Source of the DNA: an uncultured Dokdonia sp. | Lineage (GTDB): Bacteria > Bacteroidota > Bacteroidia > Flavobacteriales > Flavobacteriaceae | Direction: 5' to 3' | NCBI GenBank assembly: GCA_938002835.1 | Contig: CALKZS010000053.1 | Span: 1-49,777, forward strand | DNA length: 49,777 bases | Shown: one piece after another, positions 2,659-46,530 of the stretch | Layout: each line of letters begins with the position of its first letter | Position numbering within the stretch: the first letter of the stretch is position 1 | The notes under the pieces: model-generated | The model's database searches: none | The model's input: only the letters and a program-made list of their open reading frames with translations | Told to the model about the DNA's origin: nothing | Position numbers and translations under genes: made by a program

Positions 2659-3366
2659 TCATTTAGAGATCATCTTGTCTGTAGCTAGGTAGCTATTGTC
2701 TTTATTGTAATACCAAGAACGATCTTTTGGGAGTTTAACTCCGTTTACGGTTTCTAACCCAGAAAGTAAAATATATTCACCTGTAGTTTCATCTGGTCCT
2801 CCTTTAAAAAACTGATAAATTTCCATAGCATAGGTTTTTGGATCAAAATAGAATTGCCAGATATCTGATCCTACCTTTTCATCATAAGTAACACGTACTT
2901 TGATGTATTCTTTTCCTTTAAACGTAACACGCTCTGTCTTAGGATCTATATGAGTTCCTTGATCTTTGAGTTTCATAGGGAGTCCGTATAAATACGAGTA
3001 GTAATTACGGTATAGTAGTGTTCTTCCGCACAGTGAGTCCTTTGTCGTTGTTGTTACGATCTTTCCACTCTTATCGGTGAGCTTGCATTGATCTTCTGTG
3101 ATCTCACTTATAGTAATGCTCTCTCCTTGCGATACCGTTAGATTAAAATATTGTTTAGGTATATCTATCGTAATGATGCTTTTCCTAATAGGCTTATCTG
3201 GCATTTCTAATTCAAGAGTAAATTCCCCTTGAAAAGTAGGCCAGTTTCCATCAGGATCGTGATATGTAATCGATTTGTTAACGATATCTGATGCGCTAAG
3301 TTGTTGCGATAACGCTTTCGCGAAAGCGAAACAAATGAATATTCCAGTAATGATATTAGTATTCAT
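2659..3366 (-). CDS. Secreted protein, DUF6503-like
   Basis: The 235-residue protein has an N-terminal signal peptide (ITGIFICFAFAKALSQQ). The mature part runs DIVNKSITYHDPDGNWPTF..., contains a repeated-strand pattern, and has YRNYYSYLYGLPMKL and KVRVTYDEKVGSDIWQFYFDP segments. These resemble flavobacterial periplasmic proteins of the DUF6503 type, related to outer-membrane lipoprotein-sorting folds; I give this name from memory with moderate confidence. It follows the retropepsin-like gene by 9 bp and is probably co-transcribed with it. Its signal peptide residues AFAKA are encoded by one of the repeated palindromes (3314-3327). No catalytic function is evident. Confidence 0.75.
   Translation of the reverse strand: MNTNIITGIFICFAFAKALSQQLSASDIVNKSITYHDPDGNWPTFQGEFTLELEMPDKPIRKSIITIDIPKQYFNLTVSQGESITISEITEDQCKLTDKSGKIVTTTTKDSLCGRTLLYRNYYSYLYGLPMKLKDQGTHIDPKTERVTFKGKEYIKVRVTYDEKVGSDIWQFYFDPKTYAMEIYQFFKGGPDETTGEYILLSGLETVNGVKLPKDRSWYYNKDNSYLATDKMISK
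3314..3327. repeat. Palindrome copy 1 (GCTTTCGCGAAAGC)
   Basis: Exact 14-bp palindrome inside the signal-peptide region of the minus-strand secreted-protein gene, where it is read as Ala-Phe-Ala-Lys-Ala. The symmetry extends by one base on each side. Confidence 0.9.
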
Positions 3367-3375
3367 ATTATGTGT

Positions 3376-3813
3376 TTATTTTAAATAAAGACAGTTGTAC
3401 TGATAGTCAATAATTCCTTTTCCTTTATTGAGTATATCTGCTCCTAATATACCATCAACAGGTGTTGCATTGTGATTTTCTAGAGCAGTATTAACGTGTG
3501 TGAGATCAAACAGTACAATGTCTAATTTGTTATATTCCCATTTCTGAATCTTAATCGTGTTTTTGCGAGAGAGCTCGGTAGTCATATCTATTGCGCCAGC
3601 TCCGGCAGCAAGTACTTCGCTTTTTTCAGAAAGGAGTTTAAATTTTTCTGCAAATTTAAAATCTATACAAGAGCTAGAAGCTCCAGTGTCTAATATAAAA
3701 GAGCCTTCTATGCCATTTATTTTTGCTTTCATTTCTAAGTGATTAGTCACTGTGGGGAAAAGGCGCGTACGGTAATAATTCTTAGATAATAGAAACTCAC
3801 GAAGTGATGGCAT
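3376..3813 (-). CDS. Retropepsin-like aspartyl protease
   Basis: This 145-residue protein contains the clan AA active-site motif ILDTGASSSCID (about residues 40-51). Its C-terminal hydrophobic-Gly motif GILGADIL precedes a final GIIDYQYNCLYLK strand. That is a single retropepsin lobe, so an active enzyme would have to dimerise. There is no obvious signal peptide, and the N-terminus (MPSLREFLLSKNYYRTRL) may be short of a transmembrane segment. It is the first gene of a minus-strand pair with the secreted protein downstream (9 bp gap). Family knowledge predicts peptidase activity or a peptide-binding role; the substrate is unknown. Confidence 0.85.
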   Translation of the reverse strand: MPSLREFLLSKNYYRTRLFPTVTNHLEMKAKINGIEGSFILDTGASSSCIDFKFAEKFKLLSEKSEVLAAGAGAIDMTTELSRKNTIKIQKWEYNKLDIVLFDLTHVNTALENHNATPVDGILGADILNKGKGIIDYQYNCLYLK

Positions 3814-3887
3814 AATTTTATAATAAAATGAATGACAAAAGTACTATAATAATAAAACTTGATCTTAAGTGTCTAGAATAGGAGTTG

Positions 3888-3895
3888 TATTTTTG
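3888..3895 (+). promoter_or_regulatory. -7 box of tatD, almost abutting the ATG
   Basis: TATTTTTG ends 6 bp before the ATG at 3902, so transcription would begin at or within a few bases of the start codon. A TTG at 3859-3861 is too far away to be a normal -33 box, so the assignment is tentative. Confidence 0.45.
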
Positions 3896-3901
3896 TGAGC
3901 T

Positions 3902-4678: not shown

Positions 4679-4749
4679 TATCTCTTGTAAAATAGAGCTT
4701 ACGGGACATAAAATTTTTGTTCTTTTGTGTAAGAACTAACCTAACTATA

Positions 4750-6890: not shown

Positions 6891-7081
6891 AATATCTCTT
6901 TAAAAGACATTTTTTTTGTTAATTCGCACACCTTATTAATACATTAGTGTTCCTTTATTGAAAAGCAAAAAGAATAATATAGTTGTTGAAATTAGGCAAT
7001 GAATTAATAGTATAGGGTTGAATTATAAAGTTTTTGCTTGCTAATATTAAATCATTATTAATATAATTTAAAATAAAACTT

Positions 7082-7166: not shown

Positions 7167-7190
7167 CAAGAAGTCCTGCAAATGTTATTA

Positions 7191-7224: not shown

Positions 7225-7281
7225 AATTTTATCTAGTATCAGTGACATCATATAATATCAAATAAAAAGGGATTAATTAGA

Positions 7282-13453: not shown

Positions 13454-14272
13454 TTATAAATTTTTCACTACTTTTCTTATAGCTACGAGATTACTCAATA
13501 GTCTTTCTAAATGTGCTAAGTCTAGCATATTTGCACCGTCACTTTTTGCAGTTGCAGGGTCAAAATGAGTTTCTATAAAAAGGCCGTCTACATTATTTAC
13601 AATACCTGCGCGAGCAATAGTTTCGATCATTTCTGGTCTTCCGCCAGTGACGCCACTAGATTGATTAGGTTGTTGTAATGAATGTGTGACATCGAGTACG
13701 GTAGGGGCATAGGCTCTCATTGTAGGGATTCCTCTAAAATCTACTATCATATCTTGATACCCAAACATTGTCCCACGATCTGTAATCCAAGCATTTTTAT
13801 TGTCGCTTTCGTGCACTTTTTTTACGGCGTGTTGCATTGCCTCTGGAGACATAAATTGTCCTTTTTTTAGATTTACAACCTTTCCAGTTTTTGCAGCAGC
13901 AACGACAAGTGCAGTTTGGCGTACTAAAAAAGCGGGTATTTGTAATATATCTACATATTGTGCTGCAAGCTCTGCATCAGAAACTTCGTGTATATCTGTA
14001 ACGGTAGGAACATCAAATTTTTCAGATATTTTAGCTAGAATTTCTAAAGCCTTTTCATCACCTATACCTGTAAAACTATCTAAGCGACTACGATTTGCCT
14101 TTCTAAAGCTACCTTTAAAAACATAAGGAATTTCTAATTTATTAGTTATTGAGACTACTTTTTCGGCAATGCGATAGGCCATTTCTTCACCTTCGATAGC
14201 GCAAGGCCCGCAAAGTAAAAAGAAATTATTTGCGTTAGTATGCTTGATTTTTGGAATGCTAGATAGTGTCAT
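13454..14272 (-). CDS. kdsA: 3-deoxy-8-phosphooctulonate synthase (KDO-8-P synthase)
   Basis: The 272-residue protein has FLLCGPCAIEGEE, YVFKGSFRKANRSR, GFIGT-like TGIGDEKAL, LKKGQFMSPEAM and the STGG-like SGVTGGRPEM segment of the DAHP/KDO synthase barrel. It condenses phosphoenolpyruvate with arabinose 5-phosphate to make KDO-8-P for lipopolysaccharide core. The length is normal. lpxK of the same pathway is encoded 4 kb away. A copy of the repeated palindrome, extended to 22 bp, lies about 17 bp upstream of the ATG and would form a hairpin in the leader if transcribed. Confidence 0.96.
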   Translation of the reverse strand: MTLSSIPKIKHTNANNFFLLCGPCAIEGEEMAYRIAEKVVSITNKLEIPYVFKGSFRKANRSRLDSFTGIGDEKALEILAKISEKFDVPTVTDIHEVSDAELAAQYVDILQIPAFLVRQTALVVAAAKTGKVVNLKKGQFMSPEAMQHAVKKVHESDNKNAWITDRGTMFGYQDMIVDFRGIPTMRAYAPTVLDVTHSLQQPNQSSGVTGGRPEMIETIARAGIVNNVDGLFIETHFDPATAKSDGANMLDLAHLERLLSNLVAIRKVVKNL

Positions 14273-14292: not shown

Positions 14293-14306
14293 GCTTTCGC
14301 GAAAGC
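14293..14306. repeat. Palindrome copy 2, upstream of kdsA
   Basis: Exact GCTTTCGCGAAAGC. Perfect symmetry extends four bases on each side (14289-14310, outer arms GTAC), the longest of the nine copies. It lies between kdsA and the flavin reductase gene. Confidence 0.9.
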
Positions 14307-14348: not shown

Positions 14349-14999
14349 TTATTTGTTGCGTATAGAAGTGATGGGGTGATCTGGTTTTGCATAAGAAAGT
14401 CTATCGAGAAGTTGCGGTTTTGAGTAGCTGTCTAAACCGTTTATAGTCACTCCCTTTGTGGCTTCTAGATTGATCCAACCATCATTTTCTAATGCACTTT
14501 CTGGTAGAAATACCTCATTTATAGCACCTACAATGAGCACAGTTCCATTTTCTTTAATCGCATATTCATTTACAAATTTGCAAGCAATTTTTATATGAGC
14601 TTGTGCTACAAATGGAGCTTTGCAGGAGTCTATATAATTTGCATCTAAACCTACAGCATCAAACTCTGAGATATGCTCATCATATCTGGCAGCGGTTTGA
14701 TGTGCGTTTTTGATAATATCTGTATGTATGTGATTTACAGTAAACTCTTTTGTCTGGTGTATATTCTTGTAGGTATGGCGTGGTACTGTTGTGGGGCGTG
14801 TAATAAAACCTATAAGAGAGGGATTGCTTCCTAAGTGTGTGACAGAGCTAAAAACAGCAAGATTTTCAATACCATCGGAGGAGATGGTACCTATTAAGTT
14901 GGCACTTTTATATCCAGTGACACTATTTATAAAATTTGCGCGATAGCGATTCTCCATCGCGTTAATGGCAGTCTTGTCAAAATGTAGTATCTTTTTCAT
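14349..14999 (-). CDS. Flavin reductase-like FMN-binding protein
   Basis: The 216-residue protein has RANFINSVTGYKSANLIGTIS, NLAVFSSVTHLGSNPSLIGF, TYKNIHQTKEFTVNHI and FVAQAHIKIACKF. This is the split-barrel flavin-reductase pattern (FMN-binding loop with SVTHLGSNP). Members reduce flavin with NAD(P)H or bind FMN; the exact substrate is not visible. Its ATG is only 19 bp from the ATG of the divergent methyltransferase. Confidence 0.85.
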   Translation of the reverse strand: MKKILHFDKTAINAMENRYRANFINSVTGYKSANLIGTISSDGIENLAVFSSVTHLGSNPSLIGFITRPTTVPRHTYKNIHQTKEFTVNHIHTDIIKNAHQTAARYDEHISEFDAVGLDANYIDSCKAPFVAQAHIKIACKFVNEYAIKENGTVLIVGAINEVFLPESALENDGWINLEATKGVTINGLDSYSKPQLLDRLSYAKPDHPITSIRNK

Positions 15000-19618: not shown

Positions 19619-19632
19619 GCTTTCGCGAAAGC
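19619..19632. repeat. Palindrome copy 3, between convergent lpxK and histidine kinase
   Basis: Exact GCTTTCGCGAAAGC, with symmetry extending by TAC/GTA to 19616-19635. It is the only hairpin in the 34-bp gap between two stops and may serve both genes as a terminator. No T-run follows on either strand, so that is tentative. Confidence 0.9.
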
Positions 19633-23827: not shown

Positions 23828-23841
23828 GCTTTCGCGAAAGC
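23828..23841. repeat. Palindrome copy 4, upstream of lipA
   Basis: Exact GCTTTCGCGAAAGC in the intergenic region between lipA and birA. Symmetry reaches ACGC...GCGT (23826-23843). Confidence 0.9.
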
Positions 23842-29609: not shown

Positions 29610-32243
29610 TTATTTCAAACTTGATAATCGCTTTTCTAAAGCTTCAATTTTAGCCTCAGCATCTGCCATTTTTTGACGTTCTATCGCAACTACTTTTTCT
29701 GGAGCATTGTTTACAAAACGCTCGTTAGAAAGTTTGCCACTTACAGACTTTAAAAACCCTTTAGTGTATTTAAGTTCTTCTTCAATTTTGGCAACTTCGG
29801 CTTCTACGTCTATAGCTCCAGCAAGTGGGATAAAATATTCATTAGATTTTACCCTAAAAGAAAGAGCTCCTTCTAAAGGTTCTTTTATTAAAGTGATCTC
29901 ACTTACATTACCTAGCTTAGAAATAATGCCATCATATTCTGACGATATTTCTTTATTACCTAAAACGTGTAATTCTATTTGATCTTTAAATGCAATATTC
30001 TTGCTCTTACGTATCGTTCTTATGCCAGAAATCACTTGAGAAGCATATTCAAAATCTGATATAATATTTGTATCTGCATTTCCTCCAGAGGGCCATTTAT
30101 TTATAATTAACGCCTCCTTTGGTGTGCGACCTGTAATGGTTTGCCAGATCTCTTCAGAAGCAAATGGAATAAATGGATGCAAAATTCTTAAGTTGTTTTC
30201 AAATGCTTCAATGACTGCATCATATGTCTTACGATCTATGGGTTGTTGGTATGCAGGTTTTATAATCTCTAGCAACCAGCCACAGAAGTCATTCCATACC
30301 AGTTTGTAACTAGCCATTAACGCATCAGAAATGCGATATTTTGAAAAGTGATCTTCTATCTCTTTTAGTGTTTCATTAAAGCGATGCGTATACCAGGAAA
30401 TCCCTTGCGCACTGTATGCTGGTTGCGGTATGTTTTCATCTATTTCCCATCCTTGGATCAGGCTAAAGGCACTCAGATTCTTTTTAATAAATCCTTTTCC
30501 TTGTTTTAAAAGATCTTCGTCAAACATTAGGTCATTACCTGCAGCACTACTCAATAGAAGCCCTACGCGCACACCATCTGCACCATATTCTTCTATTAAT
30601 TTTAAAGCATCTGGTGAGTTACCTAAAGATTTTGACATCTTGCGACGTTGCTTGTCGCGCACTAACCCGGTAAGATATACATTTTCAAATGGACGTTTAT
30701 CTGTATATTCATACCCAGCAGTAATCATACGTGCTACCCAGAAAAATAAAATATCTGGACCTGTTACAAGATCATTAGTTGGGTAGTAATAGTTAAATTC
30801 TTCATTTTCTGGGTTGCGCACTCCGTCAAAAACACTCATAGGCCATAGCCAAGAGGAGAACCAAGTATCTAAGGCATCTTCATCTTGATGTAAATCTGCA
30901 GCAGTAAGGGAATTGTTTCCAGTACGCTTTCGCGAAAGCGTAATAGCATCCTCTATATTCTCTGCTACCACAAAATCTTCTTTACCATCGCCAAAATAGT
31001 AAGCAGGAATTTGCTGTCCACACCATAACTGGCGAGAGATATTCCAGTCACGAATGTTTTCCATCCAGTGACGATAGGTGTTTTCAAATTTTTTAGGAAA
31101 TAACTTTACATCACCTGTCTCAAGAACAGACTTTATGGCAGGTTTTACTAGTTCTTCCATTTTAAGGAACCATTGGTCAGAAAGGCGAGGTTCTATAACG
31201 GCCTTTGTCCGTTCTGAAGTTCCTATTTTATTAAAGTGATTTTCTGTTTTTACTAAAACAGCGAGCTCTTCAAGTTCTTTTTTAATGTTTTTACGACATT
31301 CAAAACGATCTTGACCTTCATAGTGCAATCCAAAACTATTGAGAGAGGCGTCTTCATTAAAGATGTCTATCACTTCAAGCTTGTGTTTATCTCCAAGAGC
31401 TTTATCATTTTCATCGTGAGCAGGCGTTACTTTAAGGCAACCTGTCCCAAATTCTAGGTCGACATACTCGTCTTCTATAATAGGGATCACACGACCACAA
31501 ATAGGAACAATGGCTTTTTTGCCTTTAAGATGTGTAAAGCGATCGTCTTTTGGGTTAATACAGATAGCTGTATCGCCAAAAATAGTTTCTGGACGTGTTG
31601 TGGCTATGGTTAATACATCATCACTTCCTTCTATCTTATAGTTGATATAATAAAGAAGACCCTGGCGTTCTTCGTGTATTACTTCTTCGTCAGACAGTGT
31701 TGTTTTTGCTTCAGGATCCCAATTTACCATACGGTAACCACGATAAATTAATCCTTTGTTATATAAATCTACAAAGGTTTTTATAACAGACTCACTCATA
31801 TGTGGGTCCATTGTAAAAGCAGTACGATCCCAGTCACAAGAAGCGCCTAATTTTTTTAGCTGTTCTAAGATAACACCGCCATATTCTTCTTTCCATTCCC
31901 AAGCGTGTTTTAGAAATTCTTCACGGGTGAGATCAGATTTATTGATTCCTTGTTCTTTAAGACGGGCAACTACTTTTGCTTCGGTAGCGATAGATGCGTG
32001 ATCTGTACCAGGAACCCAACACGCATTTTTACCCAATAGACGAGCACGACGTATTAGTACATCTTGTATAGTGTTATTGAGCATATGTCCCATATGCAAG
32101 ACTCCTGTTACATTAGGTGGTGGTATTACAATGGTGTATGGCTCTCTGTCATCTGGTGTAGAATGGAAAAAATTATGTTCCATCCAGTAGTTGTACCACT
32201 TTTCTTCTACTGTAGAAGTGTCATATTCTGAAGCAATGTTCAT
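29610..32243 (-). CDS. valS: Valyl-tRNA synthetase
   Basis: The start is ATG 32243 (MNIASEYDTSTVEEKW), 877 residues. A TTG 33 bases further upstream would add 11 doubtful residues. It has the HIGH-type motif HMGHMLN in PPNVTGVLHMGHML, WVPGTDHASIATEAKV (editing/insert region) and KMSKSLGN. A C-terminal coiled coil (EVAKIEEELKYTKGFLKSV) is typical of ValRS. It carries one in-frame palindrome copy (30926-30939), read as LSRKR between GPDIL-region motifs and AADLHQDE. Confidence 0.97.
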   Translation of the reverse strand: MNIASEYDTSTVEEKWYNYWMEHNFFHSTPDDREPYTIVIPPPNVTGVLHMGHMLNNTIQDVLIRRARLLGKNACWVPGTDHASIATEAKVVARLKEQGINKSDLTREEFLKHAWEWKEEYGGVILEQLKKLGASCDWDRTAFTMDPHMSESVIKTFVDLYNKGLIYRGYRMVNWDPEAKTTLSDEEVIHEERQGLLYYINYKIEGSDDVLTIATTRPETIFGDTAICINPKDDRFTHLKGKKAIVPICGRVIPIIEDEYVDLEFGTGCLKVTPAHDENDKALGDKHKLEVIDIFNEDASLNSFGLHYEGQDRFECRKNIKKELEELAVLVKTENHFNKIGTSERTKAVIEPRLSDQWFLKMEELVKPAIKSVLETGDVKLFPKKFENTYRHWMENIRDWNISRQLWCGQQIPAYYFGDGKEDFVVAENIEDAITLSRKRTGNNSLTAADLHQDEDALDTWFSSWLWPMSVFDGVRNPENEEFNYYYPTNDLVTGPDILFFWVARMITAGYEYTDKRPFENVYLTGLVRDKQRRKMSKSLGNSPDALKLIEEYGADGVRVGLLLSSAAGNDLMFDEDLLKQGKGFIKKNLSAFSLIQGWEIDENIPQPAYSAQGISWYTHRFNETLKEIEDHFSKYRISDALMASYKLVWNDFCGWLLEIIKPAYQQPIDRKTYDAVIEAFENNLRILHPFIPFASEEIWQTITGRTPKEALIINKWPSGGNADTNIISDFEYASQVISGIRTIRKSKNIAFKDQIELHVLGNKEISSEYDGIISKLGNVSEITLIKEPLEGALSFRVKSNEYFIPLAGAIDVEAEVAKIEEELKYTKGFLKSVSGKLSNERFVNNAPEKVVAIERQKMADAEAKIEALEKRLSSLK
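30926..30939. repeat. Palindrome copy 5, inside valS
   Basis: Exact GCTTTCGCGAAAGC within valS (minus strand). The gene reads it as Leu-Ser-Arg-Lys-Arg, a different frame from the Ala-Phe-Ala-Lys-Ala copies. Symmetry reaches GTAC (5 positions) on the left and GTAA on the right, so it ends at TAC/GTA. Confidence 0.9.
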
Positions 32244-32367
32244 AGTTTGGTCTAATTGTTGTCTTAAAGTAGGCAAAAGTAGGGATAACAGCAGGATAAT
32301 TAAATAGTCTAAAGATTCTTTTTAAAACGTATATATGAAAGAACAAAGTGTTAATAATCAGATCATT

Positions 32368-34138: not shown

Positions 34139-35215
34139 ATGATAATTTATATGATGAAAAAGCATTTGTATTTAGTATTTCTCTTTTCTGTTTTTATTAG
34201 CTGTGATTATGTGGTTATTGAAAATAAAAACGAAGAAGAAGGCAAGGGAGATAAAAAGCCTTCAGACTTTCCTGTTTTTCCTGAGCATAGCAATCCTGAG
34301 ATTGAAATAATTTCTATGGGTTATAAAATAGGAGATTTGTATAAAAATACTGATAGTACATTTCTTGCTTTGGGTAAAATTTCTGACAATAATACTCATA
34401 AAAGCTATGTTTTTGAATTAGATCATAATATGGTTAAACTAGATTCTGTAAGTGCAAGAGGAGTATTTAAAATACTTGAAGATGGTAGTTTTTTTACTAA
34501 TGGTTATGACGGAGAAATGTTCAAATATCAAACCATAAAATCAACACCTATAAACATTATTTTGCACCCTTTTAATGCTAGAAAATATAGAGATGAGACT
34601 GAAAGAGCAATTTATATAGAATCTTTTGATAAAAATGGTTTTCCAGATATCTCAATTTATAAATCAGAGCATAGAGTAGATTCTCTAAGTTTTATAAGGA
34701 CTACTTCAGAATTTAAAAAGCAAGTTCTTAAAAATTTAAAATGTATTTCATATATAAGAAGCAATCTTAGTCCGCCAATACTTTTTTTTAATGATAATAA
34801 AATGTACATAGGCAATGATTATCTTAGTACGTACCCTTATGATTTTGGACTTGGAGAAGAAGTACCACATAAATTATTAAAAAAAGTAGATAGTTGTGAA
34901 CTTAATTTGATGAAAAGTTTTCAAATAGACTATAATACAAACATATCACTTGTTGATGATTATGTAACAGGTTATGGAAGTGCCGGAGGTAATCATTTTT
35001 CGCCAGGAACTCGATATGAAAAAGGGCTGCAATATTTTAATTTAGAAGTAAACGGGGTTACTACGTCATTTAGAGTTTATGCTCCTCGTTTATCAACCTT
35101 GAATATAAAATCTCGTAATATTCCTCATACAGATATATGTATTATTGATGTTGTTAGAACAACAAATGAGTATCCAGAAGAATTAAACTCTTATATTGCT
35201 CGTATTAAAAAATAA
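34139..35215 (+). CDS. Paralogous lipoprotein 2 of 3 (unknown family)
   Basis: The 358-residue protein has a lipobox FISCDY (Cys about residue 23). It follows copy 1 by 41 bp. ATG 34139 is used; the ATGs at 34151 and 34154 would give a more typical short signal peptide. It repeats FPVFPEHSNPEIEI, DLYKNTDSTFL, LEDGSFF, LKCIS, DSCEL and the C-terminal SAGGNHFSPGTRYEKGLQYFNLEVNGVTTSF core, then DICIIDVV. The post-Cys region is longer and more acidic (ENKNEEEGKGDKK). By eye it is closest to copy 3, sharing YKN-S/T-D and YAP segments. The role is unknown. Confidence 0.8.
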   Translation: MIIYMMKKHLYLVFLFSVFISCDYVVIENKNEEEGKGDKKPSDFPVFPEHSNPEIEIISMGYKIGDLYKNTDSTFLALGKISDNNTHKSYVFELDHNMVKLDSVSARGVFKILEDGSFFTNGYDGEMFKYQTIKSTPINIILHPFNARKYRDETERAIYIESFDKNGFPDISIYKSEHRVDSLSFIRTTSEFKKQVLKNLKCISYIRSNLSPPILFFNDNKMYIGNDYLSTYPYDFGLGEEVPHKLLKKVDSCELNLMKSFQIDYNTNISLVDDYVTGYGSAGGNHFSPGTRYEKGLQYFNLEVNGVTTSFRVYAPRLSTLNIKSRNIPHTDICIIDVVRTTNEYPEELNSYIARIKK

Positions 35216-35279: not shown

Positions 35280-35293
35280 GCTTTCGCGAAAGC
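35280..35293. repeat. Palindrome copy 6, between lipoproteins 2 and 3
   Basis: Exact GCTTTCGCGAAAGC, flanked by ACT and AAA, so no extended symmetry. Located 64 bp past the stop of copy 2 and 49 bp before the start of copy 3. Confidence 0.9.
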
Positions 35294-35342: not shown

Positions 35343-36362
35343 ATGAAAGTTAGTCTAAAAGTATATGTAATTTTACAATTATGCAGCTTAATGATATTGA
35401 GCTGCAGTAATATAAAAACTGAAGAAGATAAACATCCAGATATGCCCTTTTTTCCTAAGCATACAAACTCTGAAATTGAAATAACTTCTCTAGGATACCA
35501 TATAGATTCTTTGTACAAGAACTCTGATAATACATTTATCACTTATGGTTCTAACAATCATTCTATATCTGTATTAGAAATGGATAATAATTTTAATATA
35601 AGAGATTCTATAAACACATATGGATTATTTGAAACATTAGAAGATGGTAGTTTTTATGTAAATGGGAAAGGAAGGTATAAAGCATTAAAGTATAATGAGA
35701 TTACTGCAAAACCTATAGGAATTGAAGAACATCCTTTTGACGGAAGTCAATATCAAGAGAACCAGGCAACTAAAATCTATAATGAATATTATGATAGAGG
35801 TTTTCCAGATTCCTTATTCTATACAATAAGTGATAAAGTAGATTCTATTAGTTTTAAAATAGCTGCTCGTGAGTTTAAGAAACAAGTTTTTGAAGGATTG
35901 CAATGTGTTGTAAAGACAAAGTATATGAATCCTATATATGTTTATAAAGACAAAGAATATGTTCATAGTACTTATCCAGATAGAGGAAGTAGTGATTTTA
36001 GATTTTGGGAAGATGCTCCTAAAGTATTGATGTCTAAAGTAGCAGATTGCAAGTCTATGAAAAGTGTTCAAACTGTTACTGATAAAAATTTTACTCTTTT
36101 TGAAAAAGCTGTGACTGGTAGTGGAAGTAGAGGAGGTAATCATTTTGTACCAGGTAGTTTTTATCCTAAAGGATTACAATATTTCAATATGGAAATAGAA
36201 GGCGTTACTACATCATTTAAAGTATATGCTCCTTATCTATCGTCTGTAAACATAAGTACTCGTCGTATTGTCAATACTAACATTTTTATTATTGACATTA
36301 TTAATGGTGATAACAAACATTTTCAACCAAAACATTCCTACATAGCACGATTAAAAAAATAA
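35343..36362 (+). CDS. Paralogous lipoprotein 3 of 3 (unknown family)
   Basis: The 339-residue protein has a lipobox ILSCSN (Cys about residue 21), then KTEEDKHPDMP. It shares PDMPFFPKHTNSE, IDSLYKNSDNTF, LEDGSFYV, LKYNEITAKP, EHPFDG, GLQCVV, VADCK and SRGGNHFVPGSFYPKGLQYFNMEIEGVTTSFKVYAP with its neighbours. The 127 bp upstream contain a palindrome copy and could hold a separate promoter. Three tandem, diverged copies suggest duplication followed by divergence, as seen in variable surface lipoproteins (inference). No function can be given. Confidence 0.8.
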   Translation: MKVSLKVYVILQLCSLMILSCSNIKTEEDKHPDMPFFPKHTNSEIEITSLGYHIDSLYKNSDNTFITYGSNNHSISVLEMDNNFNIRDSINTYGLFETLEDGSFYVNGKGRYKALKYNEITAKPIGIEEHPFDGSQYQENQATKIYNEYYDRGFPDSLFYTISDKVDSISFKIAAREFKKQVFEGLQCVVKTKYMNPIYVYKDKEYVHSTYPDRGSSDFRFWEDAPKVLMSKVADCKSMKSVQTVTDKNFTLFEKAVTGSGSRGGNHFVPGSFYPKGLQYFNMEIEGVTTSFKVYAPYLSSVNISTRRIVNTNIFIIDIINGDNKHFQPKHSYIARLKK

Positions 36363-36435: not shown

Positions 36436-37626
36436 ATGCCTGATATATCAAAAAAAGGACTTGCAATGCCGCAATCTCCTATACGAAAACTCGTTCCTTT
36501 TGCAGAAGCTGCAAAAGAAAGAGGGATACAAATACACCAGCTTAATATAGGACAACCAGATATTAAGACACCTGCTGTAGCATTAGATGCAGTAAAGAAT
36601 ATTGATATGGATGTGTTAGCATACAGCCATAGCGCAGGATTTCAATCATATAGAGAAAAATTAGCAGCTTATTATAACAAGCACGATATTCACGTAAATG
36701 AAGATGAAATTATTATCTCAACGGGAGGTTCTGAAGCACTATTATTTGCAATGGGAAGTGTGACAGATCCAGGAGATGAGATTATTATACCAGAACCTTT
36801 TTATGCAAATTATAATGGGTTTGCAACAGCAAGTGGAGTGACTGTAGTACCAGTAATCTCTAACTTAGAAACTGGATTTGCATTACCACCCATTTCAGAT
36901 TTTGAAAAGCTTATTTCAGATAAAACAAAAGCGATTGTAATATGTAATCCAGGAAATCCTACGGGATATCTATATTCTGAAGAAGAGATCAAACAGCTTG
37001 CAGATCTTGTAAAGAAACACGACCTCTTTTTAATTGCAGATGAGGTGTATAGAGAGTTTGCATATGATGGTCACATACATCACTCTGTGATGAAACAGCG
37101 TGATATAGATGCGCATACCATAATGATAGACTCTGTTTCTAAGCGTTTTTCTATGTGTGGAGCTCGTATAGGATGCATTGTAAGTCGCAATAAAGAATTA
37201 ATGAGTACAGCAATGAAGTTTGCACAAGCTCGTCTAAGCCCGCCTACATTTGCTCAGATAGCATCAGAAGCAGCTCTTGAGACACCACAATCTTATTTTG
37301 ACGATGTGATTGATGAGTATGTATCACGTAGAAATACATTAGTAGAAGGCTTGAAAGATATTCCTGGTGTAAAAGTAGCCACTCCTAAGGGAGCGTTTTA
37401 CTGTATCGTAGAGCTTCCTGTTACTAATGCAGATGCGTTTGCACAATGGCTATTAGAATCTTTTGATTATAATGGAAAAACCATAATGGTAGCACCAGCA
37501 GCAGGATTTTATAGTACTAAAGGAGTAGGACTTAATCAAGTACGCATTGCATATGTATTAGAAGACTCATTACTTAAAGAAGCAGTAGAAATATTAAAAG
37601 TGGCGCTTTCTAAATATAATTCATAA
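36436..37626 (+). CDS. Class I/II pyridoxal-phosphate aminotransferase
   Basis: The 396-residue protein has the fold-type I pattern: LNIGQPDIKTP, STGGSEALLFAMGSV, ICNPGNPTG, IADEVYREF, and the PLP Lys in SVSKRFSMCGARIG. This places it with aspartate/aromatic aminotransferases; the exact amino acid is not decided by sequence alone. It shares one base with murB (TAATG overlap) and is probably translated together with it, an arrangement without obvious metabolic link except that amino acids feed peptidoglycan. Confidence 0.9.
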   Translation: MPDISKKGLAMPQSPIRKLVPFAEAAKERGIQIHQLNIGQPDIKTPAVALDAVKNIDMDVLAYSHSAGFQSYREKLAAYYNKHDIHVNEDEIIISTGGSEALLFAMGSVTDPGDEIIIPEPFYANYNGFATASGVTVVPVISNLETGFALPPISDFEKLISDKTKAIVICNPGNPTGYLYSEEEIKQLADLVKKHDLFLIADEVYREFAYDGHIHHSVMKQRDIDAHTIMIDSVSKRFSMCGARIGCIVSRNKELMSTAMKFAQARLSPPTFAQIASEAALETPQSYFDDVIDEYVSRRNTLVEGLKDIPGVKVATPKGAFYCIVELPVTNADAFAQWLLESFDYNGKTIMVAPAAGFYSTKGVGLNQVRIAYVLEDSLLKEAVEILKVALSKYNS

Positions 37627-38645
37627 TGCATATACAAGAAAACGTATCACTAAAACAATATAATACCTTTGGTATAGATGTAAAAGCGGCCTTTTTTGCA
37701 AGTATCTCAACAGTGCAAGAACTTATAGAATTGCTTTCTAACAATAAATATCCAGATCCTTTTATTATAGGTGGAGGTAGTAATATGTTACTTACCCAAG
37801 ATATAAAAAGGCTTGTAATTCATCTCAATATTAAAGGCAAAGAAATAGTAGATGCTTCGTTTTCAGATACAGAAGTATTACTCAAAGTAGCGGGAGGCGA
37901 GAACTGGCACGATTTTGTGCTTTATTGTGTAGGTAATAATTTAGGAGGAGTAGAAAACCTATCGCTCATTCCAGGAAATGTTGGGACATCACCCATTCAG
38001 AATATTGGAGCATATGGTGTAGAGCTCAAAGATATTTTTTATGAGTGTGAAGTTCTTCATAGAACCACTCAAGAAACCAGAATTTTTTCTATAGAGGAAT
38101 GTGCTTTTGGATATAGAGATTCTGTGTTTAAAAACAAACTAAAGAATGAGTATGTGATCACTTCGGTTACCTTTAGACTTACTAAAAAAGATCATAAGAT
38201 TATGATAGATTATGGCGCTATTGTAGATACGCTTTCGCGAAAGCATATAGAAAACCCAACTCTTAAAGATGTATCAGATGCTGTTATTGAGATCCGTCAG
38301 TCTAAATTGCCAGACCCTAAGAAAATAGGTAATAGTGGTAGTTTTTTTAAAAATCCAATAATTTCACAAAAAGAGTTTGATGCCCTAAGAGCAGCTCATC
38401 CAATAGCACCATATTATCCAATAGGATCTGATCAAATTAAAGTGCCAGCAGGCTGGCTTATAGAGCAAGCAGGGTTTAAAGGAAAACGATACGGTAATGC
38501 AGGGGTGCACGATAAACAAGCTTTAGTACTGGTGAATTACGGGAATGCATCAGGTCAAGAAATATGGAATCTAGCTATAAAAATACAATCAGAAGTAAAA
38601 GAAAAATATAACATTACTATAGAACCCGAAGTTAATGTTCTTTAA
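37626..38645 (+). CDS. murB: UDP-N-acetylenolpyruvoylglucosamine reductase
   Basis: The 339-residue protein has the FAD-binding IIGGGSNMLLT, LSLIPGNVGTSPIQNIGAYGVEL, CAFGYRDSVFKN, and catalytic Ser in IGNSGSFFKNP. EPEVNVL is at the C-terminus. MurB reduces the enolpyruvyl group to UDP-N-acetylmuramic acid in the cytoplasm. The presence of YRDSVFK makes it a type I (E. coli-like) enzyme. It carries a palindrome copy (38231-38244), read as TLSRKH between IVD and ENPT, a region just before the IEIRQSKLPDP motif. Confidence 0.96.
   Translation: MHIQENVSLKQYNTFGIDVKAAFFASISTVQELIELLSNNKYPDPFIIGGGSNMLLTQDIKRLVIHLNIKGKEIVDASFSDTEVLLKVAGGENWHDFVLYCVGNNLGGVENLSLIPGNVGTSPIQNIGAYGVELKDIFYECEVLHRTTQETRIFSIEECAFGYRDSVFKNKLKNEYVITSVTFRLTKKDHKIMIDYGAIVDTLSRKHIENPTLKDVSDAVIEIRQSKLPDPKKIGNSGSFFKNPIISQKEFDALRAAHPIAPYYPIGSDQIKVPAGWLIEQAGFKGKRYGNAGVHDKQALVLVNYGNASGQEIWNLAIKIQSEVKEKYNITIEPEVNVL
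38231..38244. repeat. Palindrome copy 7, inside murB
   Basis: Exact GCTTTCGCGAAAGC; read as Leu-Ser-Arg-Lys. TAC lies to the left and ATA to the right, so symmetry stops at the core. Confidence 0.9.
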
Positions 38646-41530: not shown

Positions 41531-42090
41531 CTCCAGACAAGATTTTAGAAGAAATACAACGTGCAAAAAAAGGTGCTCAAAGTGCCTATAGCTTTTTGCT
41601 TAATACATACTGGAATGAAGTCTATGGGTATTTATTAAAGCGCACTAAAAATGAATATGATGCCGAAGACATCACTATCCAAACATTTTCTAGAGCTTTT
41701 TCTAAAATAGACACCTATAATGAAGATTTTAAGTTTAATACCTGGTTAATTACGATTGCAAAAAATATACATATTGATGTTTTGCGTAAACGGAAAGCAT
41801 CAATGCGCTCTTATTTTGCAGAACGTGATGAAGAAAAAGTACGTACAGTATTAGACGATAACCTTTCTCCAGAAGATGCGCTTATAAAAAAGCAAAATCT
41901 AGCACAACTCCTCAAATACATAAAACAACTAAAGCCTCATTATCAACAAATGATAAATTTGAGGTATTTCCAAGAGATGAGTTATCAAGAAATGGCAGAG
42001 TACATAGATGAACCTATGAGTAATGTAAAAGTAAAACTTCTTAGAGCAAGGCGATTGTTGTCTGATGTCATTCAAAAAGTAGATCGATGA
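41521..42090 (+). CDS. ECF sigma factor, second copy, no adjacent anti-sigma
   Basis: The 189-residue protein starts at GTG 41521, overlapping the glycosyltransferase end by 10 bp. It has region 2 (YGYLLKRTKNEYDAEDITIQTFSRAFSKI, TWLITIAKNIHIDVLRKRK) and region 4 (PHYQQMINLRYFQEMSYQEMAEYIDEPMSNVKVKLLRARRLL). Its stop overlaps the Nramp start by 4 bp (ATGA). No anti-sigma gene adjoins. The chain glycosyltransferase-sigma-transporter suggests co-expression rather than a regulatory pair. Confidence 0.92.
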   Translation: MEITPDKILEEIQRAKKGAQSAYSFLLNTYWNEVYGYLLKRTKNEYDAEDITIQTFSRAFSKIDTYNEDFKFNTWLITIAKNIHIDVLRKRKASMRSYFAERDEEKVRTVLDDNLSPEDALIKKQNLAQLLKYIKQLKPHYQQMINLRYFQEMSYQEMAEYIDEPMSNVKVKLLRARRLLSDVIQKVDR

Positions 42091-43322
42091 CAGCGATTCC
42101 TTTTAAAAAATTAGGCCCAGGACTTTTATTTGCAGGAGCTGCTATAGGAGTTTCTCATTTAGTACAAAGCACTCGTGCTGGAGCAGATTTTGGCTTTGGC
42201 TTACTATGGGCTTTAATACTTGTTAATATTATTAAATATCCTTTTTTCCAGTTTGGACCTCGATATGCTGCAGCAACAGGTAAGAGCTTGCTGTATGGAT
42301 ATAAAAAACTAGGAAAACCAGTATTACTTGCTTACTTTATACTTACTATAGGGACAATGTTTACCATACAGACTGCAGTTACTATTGTAACAGCTGGACT
42401 AGCAATACAGCTCTTTGGGGTTACTCAAGATATTGCAGTTTGGAGTGTAGCGATCACGATAATGTGTGCTATTATACTTGCAGTAGGGAAATATCGAGTT
42501 CTAGATAAGTTGATGAAAATTATTATCATATGCTTAACAGTAAGTACACTTATAGCAATTTTTTTTGCGCTTAGAGGGAGTGTCGCAACTTTAGGTTCTG
42601 GAAACTCAATTAGTTTATCACAGATAGTACCTACAGACGCTTTGTCTATTGCTTTTTTAATTGCATTTATGGGATGGATGCCAGCACCTCTTGATATTTC
42701 TATTTGGCATTCTTTATGGACACTAGAAAAAGCAGAAAGAGGGGAAGAAGCCATTAAAAATTCAATTTTTGATTTTAATGTAGGATATGTAGGAACCCTT
42801 GTTTTAGGAATTTGTTTTATGACATTAGGAGCTCTGGTAATGTTTGGAACAGGCAAAACGTTTTCAAGTAAAGGAGGTGTTTTTGCAGGACAACTTATTA
42901 ATATGTATACATCAAATCTAGGAAGTTGGGCCACTATTATTATTGGGATAGCAGCATTTACAACAATGTTTAGTACTACATTAACAACTCTTGATGCGTC
43001 ACCTCGAGCAATGAAAGCTACAACAGATTTGCTGGGCTTTGGTTTTAAAAAACGAGGGTACTTATTCTGGCTCACAATACTTATTGTGGGTACCTGTTGT
43101 ATTCTTTTTTTCTTGATAAGTGAGATGGAGCTTTTGGTAAAGATTGCGACTATTTTATCATTTCTTACAGCTCCTTTTTATGCAATATGCAATTATCTAG
43201 TGTTTAAAGACCCAGAACTTCCAGAAGAGGCTAAGCTTTCAAAATCATTACAAGGGCTAAGTATTTTTAGTATTGTTGCTCTTATATTGTTTAGTATCTG
43301 GTATGTGATTACCTTGTTTTAA
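42087..43322 (+). CDS. Nramp-superfamily membrane transporter
   Basis: The 411-residue protein has about 11 TM helices. GPGLLFAGAAIGVSHLVQSTRAGADFG (TM1) and FLIAFMGWMPAPLDISIW (TM6) locate the two broken helices of the Nramp fold. The canonical DPGN of TM1 is absent (AAIGVSH) and the TM6 MPH-type motif is MPA. The substrate may therefore not be Mn/Fe. Start ATG overlaps the sigma gene. Relatives with this TM1 occur in Bacteroidetes and are usually annotated simply as Nramp. Confidence 0.85.
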   Translation: MTAIPFKKLGPGLLFAGAAIGVSHLVQSTRAGADFGFGLLWALILVNIIKYPFFQFGPRYAAATGKSLLYGYKKLGKPVLLAYFILTIGTMFTIQTAVTIVTAGLAIQLFGVTQDIAVWSVAITIMCAIILAVGKYRVLDKLMKIIIICLTVSTLIAIFFALRGSVATLGSGNSISLSQIVPTDALSIAFLIAFMGWMPAPLDISIWHSLWTLEKAERGEEAIKNSIFDFNVGYVGTLVLGICFMTLGALVMFGTGKTFSSKGGVFAGQLINMYTSNLGSWATIIIGIAAFTTMFSTTLTTLDASPRAMKATTDLLGFGFKKRGYLFWLTILIVGTCCILFFLISEMELLVKIATILSFLTAPFYAICNYLVFKDPELPEEAKLSKSLQGLSIFSIVALILFSIWYVITLF

Positions 43323-43336
43323 TTTGTTTTTGTTAC

Positions 43337-43350
43337 GCTTTCGCGAAAGC
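43337..43350. repeat. Palindrome copy 8, between Nramp and tgt genes
   Basis: Exact GCTTTCGCGAAAGC, 15 bp past the Nramp stop; could also be part of a terminator. TTAC precedes and AGAA follows. Confidence 0.9.
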
Positions 43351-43416
43351 AGAAAAATCCGAAAATCTACTTTAATTTTCTAATAATCTAGAGGGCTTAA
43401 ACTTATTGGTTTAAGC

Positions 43417-43424
43417 TATCTTTG
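43417..43424 (+). promoter_or_regulatory. -7 box abutting the tgt start
   Basis: TATCTTTG ends 6 bp before ATG 43431, so the transcript should begin at or next to the start codon. There is no clear -33 TTTG. Confidence 0.55.
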
Positions 43425-43430
43425 CCGCCT

Positions 43431-44561
43431 ATGCGATTTGATTTACTTACAACAGACCCTGCGTCACAAGCAAGAGCGGGAAAACTCACTACAGACCACG
43501 GTGTGATTGAAACACCTATATTTATGCCAGTAGGAACTGTGGCTTCTGTTAAAGGGGTTCACCAGCGAGAACTAAGAGAAGATATCAATCCAGATATTAT
43601 CTTAGGAAACACCTATCATTTGTATTTACGTCCTAAGATGGAAATTCTACAAAAAGCTGGAGGATTACATAAGTTTATGAACTGGGATAGACCTATTCTT
43701 ACTGATAGTGGTGGTTATCAAGTGTATTCACTTTCTGGAAGACGTAAGATTAAAGAAGAAGGAGTGCGTTTTAAATCTCACATAGATGGATCAATGCATT
43801 TATTTACACCAGAAAACGTGATGGAAATACAGCGTCAAATAGGAGCAGATATAATGATGGCTTTTGATGAGTGTACACCCTATCCTTGTGATTATAGATA
43901 TGCAAAGCGATCTATGCATATGACACACCGCTGGTTAGATCGTTGTATCAATCATTTTAATAAAGTACCTGCCTTATACGGTCACGAGCAAGTACTGTTT
44001 CCTATAGTACAGGGAAGTGTTTATAAGGATTTAAGAGCTCAGAGTGCAGAGTATATAGCAAATACAAACTCTTTTGGAAATGCAATAGGCGGTCTTTCTG
44101 TAGGAGAACCCGCAGAAGAGCTCTATGCAATGACAGAGGTAGTAACCGCCATTTTACCTAAAGAAAAACCGAGATATTTGATGGGAGTAGGAACTCCTAT
44201 AAATATTCTTGAAAATATTGCGTTAGGGATAGATATGTTTGATTGTGTAATGCCCACGCGCAATGCTCGTAACGGAATGTTATTTACAGCCCAAGGAAGT
44301 ATTAATATTAAAAATGTAAAATGGGAAGACGATTTTTCTCCCATAGATGAAATGGGTATTACTTGGGTAGATACAGAGTATAGCAAAGCTTATTTACGTC
44401 ACTTATTTAAGTGCAAAGAGCTACTAGGAATGCAAATTGCGACTATACATAACTTAGGATTTTATATGTGGTTAGTGAGAGAAGCTCGCAAGCATATCAT
44501 AGCAGGAGACTTTGCAGTCTGGAAAGAAAAAATGGTAAAACAAATGGATAAACGTCTATAA
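43431..44561 (+). CDS. tgt: tRNA-guanine transglycosylase
   Basis: The start is ATG 43431 (MRFDLLTTDPASQ), 376 residues. A TTG nine bases earlier lies inside the -7 box. It has ETPIFMPVGTVASVKGV, NTYHLYLRP, LTDSGGYQVYSL (catalytic Asp), IVQGSVYKDLR, GGLSVGEP and YLMGVGTP. The second catalytic Asp is in FDCVMPTRNARNG. The usual C-terminal CxCxxC...H zinc site is replaced: I see only CK (FKCKELLG) and H (TIHNLGFY). It inserts preQ1 into GUN anticodons. The LptF/G-type permease follows directly. Confidence 0.94.
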   Translation: MRFDLLTTDPASQARAGKLTTDHGVIETPIFMPVGTVASVKGVHQRELREDINPDIILGNTYHLYLRPKMEILQKAGGLHKFMNWDRPILTDSGGYQVYSLSGRRKIKEEGVRFKSHIDGSMHLFTPENVMEIQRQIGADIMMAFDECTPYPCDYRYAKRSMHMTHRWLDRCINHFNKVPALYGHEQVLFPIVQGSVYKDLRAQSAEYIANTNSFGNAIGGLSVGEPAEELYAMTEVVTAILPKEKPRYLMGVGTPINILENIALGIDMFDCVMPTRNARNGMLFTAQGSINIKNVKWEDDFSPIDEMGITWVDTEYSKAYLRHLFKCKELLGMQIATIHNLGFYMWLVREARKHIIAGDFAVWKEKMVKQMDKRL

Positions 44562-45638
44562 TTGAAAATACTTGATTGGTATATCGTAAAACGTTACATC
44601 GGGACTTTTATCACGATGCTAGCGCTGTTTGTTCCTATTGGGATTATTGTCAATCTTGCAGAGAAGATTGATAAAATCTTATTGAACGAGGTGCCTTTTA
44701 GTGAGGTTGCGCTATACTACCTCAACTTTACCATTTACTTTGCAAACCTGTTATTTCCTTTGTTTTTATTCTTATCGGTAATTTGGTTTACTTCAAAGCT
44801 CGCAAATAACACAGAAGTAATTGCTTTTTTAAGTAGTGGAGTTTCTTTTACAAGGTTTTTACGTCCATATCTAATAGGCGCTACTGTTGTTTGTATAGGA
44901 GCATTTGTTCTAGGGACATATCTCGCGCCTAGAGCAAATAAAGGATATAATGAGTTTATTTTTGAATATCTCAAAAAAGGAAAAAAAGATAGAGAAACAC
45001 AAGATGTATATAGACAGATAGATGAAGGAGATTATATATATGTAAGTAATTTTACGCCAAGTACAAAAACAGGAAGTAATTTTACTTGGGAGCATTTTGA
45101 AGGCAATACAATGACCTATAAAATGAGTGCTAGTAGAATAAAGTTTAATCCTAAAGACACAACATACACGCTCAATAAATTTAAGATGCGTGAGATAGGT
45201 CCATATGGTGATATACTGCATAGCAAAACAAAGTTAGACACTGTTTTTAATTTTGATATAGATGATCTAACCCCAGTAGAGTATATAGCAGAGACACTTA
45301 ATACTCCAGAACTTAAAGAATTTATTGCAAAAGAAAGATCAAGAGGCTCTTCATATATAAGTCGTTATGAAGTAACACTTCAAAAAAGATATAGTTTGCC
45401 TGTTGCTGCATATATACTAACTATTATTGCAGTAGCGGTAAGTGCAATGAAACGTCGGGGTGGTATGGGTATTAATCTTGCTTTTGGTATTATACTAGCA
45501 TTTATTTTTATCTTTTTTGATAAAGTATTTGGTACGCTAGCAGAGCAGTCAGATTTTCCTCCATTAATTGCAGTATGGACACCTAATATTCTTTTTGCAA
45601 TTTTAGCTGCATATCTACTTAAAAATGCAAAACGATAG
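44562..45638 (+). CDS. LptF/LptG-family permease
   Basis: The 358-residue protein starts at TTG 44562 (MKILDWYIVKRYIGTFI), immediately after the tgt stop. It has the YjgP/YjgQ layout: TM helices in the N-terminal third (about 12-120), a large periplasmic beta-jellyroll region (about 130-270), then three TM helices at the C-terminus. LptF/G move lipopolysaccharide out of the inner membrane with LptB. No lptB or second permease gene is here. I do not call F or G from sequence alone. Confidence 0.9.
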   Translation: MKILDWYIVKRYIGTFITMLALFVPIGIIVNLAEKIDKILLNEVPFSEVALYYLNFTIYFANLLFPLFLFLSVIWFTSKLANNTEVIAFLSSGVSFTRFLRPYLIGATVVCIGAFVLGTYLAPRANKGYNEFIFEYLKKGKKDRETQDVYRQIDEGDYIYVSNFTPSTKTGSNFTWEHFEGNTMTYKMSASRIKFNPKDTTYTLNKFKMREIGPYGDILHSKTKLDTVFNFDIDDLTPVEYIAETLNTPELKEFIAKERSRGSSYISRYEVTLQKRYSLPVAAYILTIIAVAVSAMKRRGGMGINLAFGIILAFIFIFFDKVFGTLAEQSDFPPLIAVWTPNILFAILAAYLLKNAKR

Positions 45639-46530
45639 CCTTAAGTCATACTTACATTTTCACCTCATCGTTTTTATTTGGGGATTTACAGCGGTACTTG
45701 GCGCACTTATTACAATCGATGCGCTTCCGTTAGTTTGGTTTAGAATGGGACTTGCTAGCATCTTTATTTTTATATATGTAAAAGTACGTGGCATCTCATT
45801 ATCGCTTTCTCCCAAAACTTTGTTTGGTTTTTTTATTGCAGGACTTATAATCGCTGTTCACTGGCTCACTTTTTTCGGAGCGATTAAAGTATCTAATGTG
45901 TCTATTACACTTGCTATGATGAGTACAGGCGCTTTTTTTACAGCATTGCTAGAGCCTATTTTTTATAAACGAAAACTCATTTGGTATGAACTCCTTTTTG
46001 GAGCCATTGTCGTTGCGGCTTTATATCTCATTTTTGAAGTAGAGACTACGTACCGCACAGGGATTTTTATGGCGCTAGCTTCTGCGTTTCTTTCGGCAGT
46101 ATTTACGTTAATTAACGGAAAATTTGTAACAAAGCACCACCCTACTAAAATTTCGTTTTATGAACTCTTATTTGGGACGTTATGTGTGACGATGTATCTC
46201 GCTTTCGCGAAAGCGGACACCTTTTTCTCTCCACAGTTTTTTAATCTCCCAACAATGGATTGGGTATACATAGGAGTACTGGCAACCGCTTGTACGGCAT
46301 ATGCATTTATAGCTGCCGTATCTGTAATGAAACATCTAAGTCCATATACCGTGATGCTTACTATAAATTTAGAACCAGTGTATGGAATTTTATTAGCTTT
46401 TTTAGTTCTAGGAGATGCAGAGCGTATGAGCACAGAATTTTATTATGGAGCATTGCTTATACTAGTGGTTGTAATAGCTAACGGCATTTTAAAAAATAGT
46501 AAACGCTTCAAGACTAAAAAAGAGGTTTGA
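45625..46530 (+). CDS. EamA/DMT-superfamily transporter
   Basis: The 301-residue protein has ten predicted TM helices in two EamA halves (HLIVFIWGFTAVLGALITIDALPLVWFR; GIFMALASAFLSAVFTLING). It starts 14 bp inside the permease gene, so translational coupling is likely. Substrate unknown; members carry amino acids, nucleotide sugars or other metabolites. It encodes a palindrome copy (46201-46214) read as LAFAKAD in a loop between TM helices. Confidence 0.9.
   Translation: MQNDSLKSYLHFHLIVFIWGFTAVLGALITIDALPLVWFRMGLASIFIFIYVKVRGISLSLSPKTLFGFFIAGLIIAVHWLTFFGAIKVSNVSITLAMMSTGAFFTALLEPIFYKRKLIWYELLFGAIVVAALYLIFEVETTYRTGIFMALASAFLSAVFTLINGKFVTKHHPTKISFYELLFGTLCVTMYLAFAKADTFFSPQFFNLPTMDWVYIGVLATACTAYAFIAAVSVMKHLSPYTVMLTINLEPVYGILLAFLVLGDAERMSTEFYYGALLILVVVIANGILKNSKRFKTKKEV
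46201..46214. repeat. Palindrome copy 9, inside the EamA gene
   Basis: Exact GCTTTCGCGAAAGC; read as Ala-Phe-Ala-Lys-Ala, as in copy 1. Symmetry extends by one base on each side (CGC...GCG). Confidence 0.9.

Follow-up and report, generated by a model that had tools for sequence, protein, structure and literature searches.

A 14-bp palindrome present in hundreds of copies in Dokdonia and Nonlabens genomes, and its possible role as a DNA-uptake-like self tag

Why should one 14-bp word recur, letter for letter, along a bacterial contig? The stretch considered here (the window) comprises 49,777 nucleotides from an uncultured Dokdonia sp. (Flavobacteriaceae; contig CALKZS010000053.1 of assembly GCA_938002835.1), and the word is the perfect palindrome GCTTTCGCGAAAGC, for which both strands are covered by symmetry. 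An initial annotation had reported nine exact copies, five of them intergenic and four within open reading frames (ORFs), and had judged this number far above chance; all nine start where it had placed them and have the gene context it described. The source genome (G000; 3,098,044 bases in 196 contigs) contains 610 perfect copies, as compared to 0.003 predicted from base composition and 0 for the word read backwards, and the copies listed are spread over many contigs, i.e., the excess is neither close to expectation nor confined to this region, the two outcomes that the annotation had named as speaking against it. Besides these copies, no match in the window has 1 mismatch and a single one, at 13236, has 2 mismatches, whereas shuffling the window gives a mean of 0.14 matches at ≤2 mismatches (maximum 1); all nine TCGCGA words of the window fall inside the palindrome copies. 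Taking our comparisons together, we see an even chance that the palindrome is a self tag resembling a DNA uptake sequence, kept by transformation and recombination.

Genomes that carry the palindrome

We counted the palindrome in 397 genomes drawn from Flavobacteriaceae. At least one perfect copy was found in 80 of them, and hundreds of copies in only six: two Dokdonia (G000, 610; G206, 857), three Nonlabens (G010, 578; G242, 664; G394, 609) and one genome of a third genus (G190, 408). The remaining 391 have 0–19 copies each. A count in relatives had been proposed by the annotation, and all 18 Dokdonia and all 23 Nonlabens genomes examined proved to be rich (369–905 and 288–857 copies, respectively); those with a completeness of 90% or more (13 Dokdonia, 20 Nonlabens) have 478–905 copies each, which supports an uptake-like tag. 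The density in rich genomes is about one copy per 3.6–8 kb. No second genome of G190's genus was found among 40 further genomes checked, and 15 genomes from other families of the order contain 0 copies. Three genomes lie between the rich and the empty ones, namely G076 and G287 (genus g77) and G051, with 16, 19 and 17 perfect copies. Among the matches listed, at least 109 stretches of named genomes carry the word, 72 from Dokdonia, Nonlabens or BBFL7 (which we take to group with Nonlabens) and 37 from others; 36 of these 37 are single-copy and few have good flanks, so we consider them coincidental.

In a tree of ValS, FtsH and DnaB (30 genomes, 26 of them with ValS), Dokdonia, G190 and G144 are grouped (96.5/97), as are G190 and G144 (94.1/96), and support near the attachment of Nonlabens is only 57/46, which does not fix its placement; a single origin of the palindrome in the rich genera is possible. 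G144, the sister of G190, and G329 belong to one genus and have 9 and 6 perfect copies. At ≤2 mismatches they have 86 and 74 matches versus 20 and 10 for the control, an excess not seen in seven other genera (6–24 matches, controls 8–21; G201 with 4 perfect copies, and G001, G100, G029, G014, G005 and G217 with 0). Judged from the sequences, these near-match relics would fit decay after loss of the factor that maintained the word. In valS, both G144 and G329 have a 2-mismatch form at the position of G190's copy, which is the sole alignable G190 site and could be chance. The palindrome system is common to at least three genera and may be gained and lost as a whole.

Shape, exactness and spacing of the sites

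The palindrome forms the centre of a larger symmetric footprint, about 50 bp long. According to the flank profile from intergenic copies (51 Dokdonia, 35 Nonlabens), the 5′ flank is C-poor and T/G-rich to about −18, with the mirror image on the other side. Position −1 of the half-site is C (0.84 in Dokdonia, 0.97 in Nonlabens), position −3 is T (0.83 and 0.80), and position −2 is genus-specific (A, 0.75, in Dokdonia; T, 0.80, in Nonlabens). Such genus dialects around a common core support an uptake-like tag. Left and right flanks vary independently except for a weak association at −1 and −2, so the footprint is a two-fold site of about 50 bp and not a long hairpin.

Placement was counted with a simple ORF caller. 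In G397 (400 kb), 60 of the 107 copies (56%) are outside ORFs, which cover 91% of the sequence, as are 30 of 84 (36%) in G413 (ORFs covering 90%); in G190 it is 7 of 62 (ORFs covering 88%), i.e., no intergenic enrichment. Copies within genes favour one frame, AFAKA (108/191), which again supports a tag of the uptake kind. The intergenic enrichment in G397 and G413 would suit an RNA or transcription signal (a terminator, processing hairpin or promoter element), but this explanation is extremely improbable: the flanks have no significant positive covariation beyond position 2, the types of intergenic region with copies roughly match the background, and 55 of the 62 G190 copies are in ORFs. An intrinsic terminator was rejected, as the flank is T-rich before the palindrome and A-rich after it, the reverse of a hairpin followed by a T-run. 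A Chi site was rejected as well, because Chi is an oriented, replication-skewed word and a palindrome has no orientation.

HIP1 itself was also rejected, being a different word (GCGATCGC) with cyanobacterial hosts, whereas the rich genomes belong to Flavobacteriaceae. An iterated palindrome of the HIP1 type, kept via DNA methylation, repair or recombination independently of uptake, would share with cyanobacterial HIP1 that it is palindromic, genome-wide and both genic and intergenic (passages of PMC4390886). We hold this to be improbable since TCGCGA is near expectation outside the full site (ratios 1.05–1.18), though TTCGCGAA (1.96, 3.53 and 1.20) and GCGAAAGC (1.43, 1.97 and 1.20) are somewhat enriched there; these longer inner words are perhaps decayed copies. 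Ordinary methylation sites are shorter than a 14-mer, and 14 bp with flanks of about 18 per side is unlike a methyltransferase site. Of the signal types that the initial annotation had offered, the data favour uptake and make an ordinary methylation site less likely. Another hexamer, TCCGGA, was found 269 times in the G190 samples (477 kb) versus 18 in Dokdonia and 16 in Nonlabens, near Markov expectation though.

Perfect copies far outnumber near matches in several genomes. In our samples there are 8 1-mismatch copies to 107 perfect ones in G397, 7 to 84 in G413 and 2 to 24 in G242 (7–8% in all three), and 0 to 9 in the window, which supports an uptake-like tag. Genome-wide, 1–2-mismatch copies number 213 to 899 perfect in G397 (control 17), 138 to 762 in G413 (control 16) and 102 to 664 in G242 (control 11). 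By a rough estimate, over-representation drops 145–562-fold from 0 to 1 mismatch (G190, G413, G397). For known uptake words, passages of PMC1939737 give a drop of 82–92-fold, and for kingDUS, permitting one mismatch adds 21% (passages of PMC3630211). The steep one-mismatch fall expected of the DNA uptake sequence (DUS) and the uptake signal sequence (USS) is present here, though it is less steep in G190 and G206.

Spacing, which the annotation had proposed to examine, is even in the manner of DUS and USS: gaps shorter than 1 kb are scarce in all three lineages (4/106, 24.8 expected; 5/83, 16.2 expected; 0/99, 12.6 expected), i.e., close pairs are avoided, and the gap distributions have gamma shapes of 2.2–2.4. 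The coefficient of variation in G413 alone is not below that of an exponential (0.95, p 0.37), and the G000 contigs C7 and C10 are each non-significant alone (p 0.09 and 0.06). Neighbour distances of 4.2–4.6 kb were seen in excess in the Nonlabens genomes G413, G242 and G010 (19 versus 6.1 expected from the gamma fit), an excess found post hoc and not present in Dokdonia (9 versus 8.2 expected).

Symmetry and spacing also bring in a different explanation, in which an abundant chromosome protein particular to the lineage (nucleoid-associated, nucleoid-occlusion, condensin-loader or ParB/Noc-like) binds the palindrome, with copies selected for even coverage. The dyad symmetry, with largely independent half-site flanks to about −18, would suit a homodimer, and so would the avoidance of close pairs suit even coverage. 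No trend is visible by eye along 24 G190 and 27 G397 stretches; this agrees with such a protein, leaves no replichore trend of the kind the annotation had raised, and led us to reject a replichore or terminus signal. We regard a nucleoid-type binder as a real rival, as symmetry and even coverage suit it well, but on balance as rather unlikely. The site is far more exact than needed (28 bits of core information, where about 12.3 bits would suffice to find 610 sites in 3.1 Mb), and G397, G413 and G242 have few 1-mismatch sites, yet selection on each of ~700 copies should be weak. Large Dokdonia genomes do not have more copies than small ones: those of at least 4 Mb have a mean of 794 (n=4) and smaller ones 779 (n=9), at densities of 162 and 238 per Mb (p=0.003), and these about equal counts support an uptake-like tag. 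No candidate protein was identified, with no family search for ParB/Noc made.

A 30-kb palindrome-free stretch in G413 contains a Wadjet-type cluster, which we also count in favour of an uptake-like tag. The Wadjet-like defence cluster (JetD, SbcC-like and DUF3375) is at L349 1244–7296, corresponding to about 301–307 kb of G413:C4. In G397, a giant ORF of 4951 aa (L329 5125–19980) is found in a stretch of 20 kb with one palindrome copy.

Retention in place, and copies on islands and phages

For retention at orthologous positions we used loci not picked for holding the word, and dropped alignments shorter than 300 bp or with flank identity below 0.55; sites of related query genomes were counted apart and are non-independent, and the local alignment is itself aided by a shared word, which somewhat favours retained sites. 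With these limits, G010 and G242 (Nonlabens) have 18 of 19 sites in common. At about 71% flank identity within Nonlabens, 12 of the 22 G413 sites are perfect in G242 (control 14-mers, 3/176) and 12 of the 14 G242 sites are perfect in G413 (2/112). Between the genera, 8 of 14 Nonlabens sites have a perfect counterpart in some Dokdonia (control 0/176), and 4 of 6 Dokdonia sites have one in some Nonlabens (control 0/152).

Alleles without the word are mostly entirely different, according to a first conservation table (alignments <300 bp, identity >97% or flank identity <0.55 dropped) which, like the allele-length test (same cutoffs, but flank identity <0.6), includes loci fetched because they hold the word. 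Among 63 such alleles, net length over 44 bp is unchanged in 37 and changed in 26. These are the data that bear on a spreading or mobile short element, e.g. an insertion like a miniature inverted-repeat transposable element (MITE) or a repetitive extragenic palindrome (REP), or homing-like copying. Many identical copies, clade restriction and presence on islands and phages would be expected of it, and length differences are more frequent in these alleles than in control windows (39/243). The equal length of most word-less alleles, however, indicates that the palindrome is not a mobile insert; only 1 of the 63 shows a 14–20 bp step, so REP elements, bacterial interspersed mosaic elements (BIME), MITEs and other mobile repeats, for which occupied alleles should be longer, were rejected. 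In addition, 44–89% of copies are in ORFs (G397, G413, G190) and positions are common to different genera. We therefore consider a mobile element very improbable. The annotation had left a choice between a maintained genome-wide signal and spread by some process; presence and retention bear out the former, and allele lengths speak against spread by insertion.

The nine copies of the window illustrate these placements. Copy 5 (30926..30939) is within 29610–32276(−), presumably valS, in frame TLSRKR. The word is found in this frame in Dokdonia (the window and G206) and Nonlabens (G010, G242 and G394), whereas in valS of G190 it lies two bases away, in frame AFAKA, and 28 other genomes compared at this position are without it; from these alignments, one and the same tolerant place seems to have received the word on at least two occasions. 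Copy 7 (38231..38244; within murB, 37626–38645(+), frame TLSRKH) is missing at the aligned position in G206, G242, G394 and G190. Copy 9 (46201..46214; within an EamA-family gene, 45625–46530(+), frame AFAKA) is perfect in G190 and has 1 mismatch in G206, where the flanks align weakly (0.57 and 0.51). The fourth genic copy, copy 1 (3314..3327, frame AFAKA), is within the ORF 2659–3366(−), for which no NCBIfam match was found at 1e-10. The others are intergenic: copy 2 (14293..14306), whose symmetry extends further, to GTACGCTTTCGCGAAAGCGTAC, between DAHP synthase family (13454–14272(−)) and flavin reductase family (14349–14999(−)) genes; copy 3 (19619..19632) between convergent LpxK-family (18597–19604(+)) and histidine-kinase-like (19639–21858(−)) genes; copy 4 (23828..23841) between radical-SAM (22899–23774(−)) and biotin/lipoate ligase family (23941–24678(−)) genes; copy 6 (35280..35293) between the ORFs 34139–35215(+) and 35343–36362(+); and copy 8 (43337..43350) between Nramp family (42087–43322(+)) and TGT family (43422–44561(+)) genes.

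Other genera have small clusters of copies. Five loci (L245, L247, L248, L250 and L056), with carriers including Altibacter (G101) and Aquimarina (L056), share a copy pair 933 bp apart. Gene families were searched in three cluster loci: L245 and L253 contain CusA-, CusC-, CusB-, multicopper-oxidase- or P-type-ATPase-like genes, the 933-bp pair of L245 being in the CusC-like gene of a copper/silver-efflux-type region, and L249 contains a beta-lactamase-fold gene and a cyclase-like gene, not metal-efflux genes. The flank score is above 5 for 25 of the 36 cluster copies scored (rich-clade mean 10.1), and the L249 copies are not among them. From these sequences we infer that the metal clusters are probably DNA from a rich donor. 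The 933-bp pair might serve to mark transfers from the rich clade into other genera.

Fifteen viral records, selected because they had good flanks or several copies, contain 2–7 copies each in 12–40 kb. L199 has Mu-like transposition genes and L177 an integrase, so at least two phage lineages look temperate. Overall, at least 132 copies were scored in at least 120 viral stretches; 21 have a flank score above 5, some from the same phage repeated, and 65 are in stretches of more than 50% GC and look like chance.

An uptake-like tag compared with known systems

So exact a word at many tolerant positions would be hard to keep by selection on single sites, for which reason we propose renewal. A surface or periplasmic competence DNA receptor would bind the symmetric ~50-bp site centred on GCTTTCGCGAAAGC, fragments bearing the site would preferentially be taken up, and homologous recombination would restore or install the site in the recipient; perfect copies would then build up wherever the shared genome tolerates them and be renewed in place. 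The receptor, the preferential uptake and the renewal by recombination are all three what we infer. Biased uptake plus recombination would explain why the word is exact and retained, why its alleles are all-or-none, why close pairs are avoided, and why there are dialects and a sister lineage with decay. Passages of PMC2397512 give a comparable list for DUS: they are highly conserved where the core genome is permissive, they are missing from genes of recent acquisition, their spacing is related to recombination tracts, and new DUS take the place of unlike sequence. In transformation, Riemerella columbina, which its authors assign to Flavobacteriaceae, shows a preference for DNA of its own, with the motif given as unknown (passages of PMC7965970).

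Several observations weigh against a tag kept by uptake. The annotation had asked about conservation of position, and while many orthologous sites are identical, in the single aligned Dokdonia pair only 1 of the 7 sites of G206 has a perfect counterpart in the window, and in reverse 1 of 4. Divergence between G010 and G242 is reduced only in the nearest 25 bp of copies (0.082, versus 0.120 at 51–100 bp, about 0.10 farther and 0.068 beyond 6 kb). Stringency is uneven: 1-mismatch copies number 11 to 24 perfect in the G206 sample (46%) and 18 to 62 in that of G190 (29%), and genome-wide 1–2-mismatch copies number 207 to 610 in G000 (control 21) and 324 to 408 in G190 (control 48). Metal islands and phages carry copies, so the palindrome is not confined to the core. 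The abundance of 1–2-mismatch forms in G000 and G190 and the copies on temperate phages and metal islands would agree with a chromosome-binding protein, which several of the patterns above would fit too. The correlation between copy number and genome size is weak and non-significant (rho 0.40, p 0.18 in Dokdonia; 0.19, p 0.42 in Nonlabens). No receptor was found, the search being for PF00437 (secretion/pilus ATPase), with none made for ComEC or pilins; of 9 rich genomes, three (G000, G413, G242) have PF00437 over cut-off, as do 2 of 21 others (G217, G329), and since it is below cut-off in the other six rich genomes, the data do not support a type IV pilus as what the rich genomes have in common. 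Finally, the known uptake words treated in passages of PMC1939737 are not palindromes. The sole G413 ATPase over the PF00437 cut-off (G413:C4:336408–337520) is inside a palindrome-free gap (332469–352822), so it may be a recent import.

In the open literature searched (subscription papers and preprints were outside its scope), the 14-mer was not found, TTTCGCGAAA occurs in papers none of which is by title on this subject, and the matches listed for Dokdonia or Nonlabens with palindromes, uptake or repeats contain nothing on it. We know of no self tag for DNA exchange of this kind from Bacteroidota. The uptake sequences that are well studied belong to two families of proteobacteria, and are treated, in the passages concerned, by the papers cited above (PMC1939737 and PMC3630211). 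The fuller proposal, which we put forward tentatively and at somewhat less than even chance, is an undescribed self-recognition tag of Bacteroidota. It would be a palindromic signal for uptake or exchange, read by a dimer over a footprint of 50 bp; it would unite at least three genera into a single community of exchange, be gained and lost as a whole system, and mark resident phages and exported islands. If true, it would be a third, unrelated and palindromic example, in marine Bacteroidota, on which molecular drive and kin recognition could be tested against each other; it would suggest a DNA receptor of a kind not yet known, in a group in which PF00437 does not reach cut-off in 6 of 9 rich genomes, and would provide a means of recognising DNA exported from these genera, e.g. 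copper-efflux islands. If the chromosome-protein explanation is true instead, a chromosome-binding protein with about 700 near-invariant sites would be revealed.

Among known systems, DUS of Neisseriaceae is alike in its hundreds to thousands of near-perfect copies, permissive positions, often all-or-none orthologous sites, lineage dialects and some copies in coding sequence. DUS is an oriented 10–12-mer, whereas here we have a palindromic 14-mer with symmetric flanks, in a different phylum, with no pilus ATPase common to the rich genomes, with some islands and phages carrying copies, and with no ComP-type receptor known (no search was aimed at one). Noc-binding sites and parS (ParB family) are 14–16-bp palindromes with TTTC...GAAA halves, similar in length and halves to the word here, but the known ones number tens, not hundreds, and their half-site spacing differs. 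HIP1 is likewise an over-represented palindrome across a clade's genomes; it is 8 bp long and linked to methyltransferases of inner words (passages of PMC4390886), while the inner hexamer here is not enriched outside the site. USS of Pasteurellaceae has, as here, a short invariant core with weaker flanking positions and even spacing, its core being 9 bp and non-palindromic, with weaker T-rich blocks on one side (passages of PMC1939737). DUS and USS are oriented words and ours is a perfect palindrome; because non-palindromy is a feature of the known examples and not of the mechanism, our claim is that the palindrome may work like them, not that it is a member of their class.

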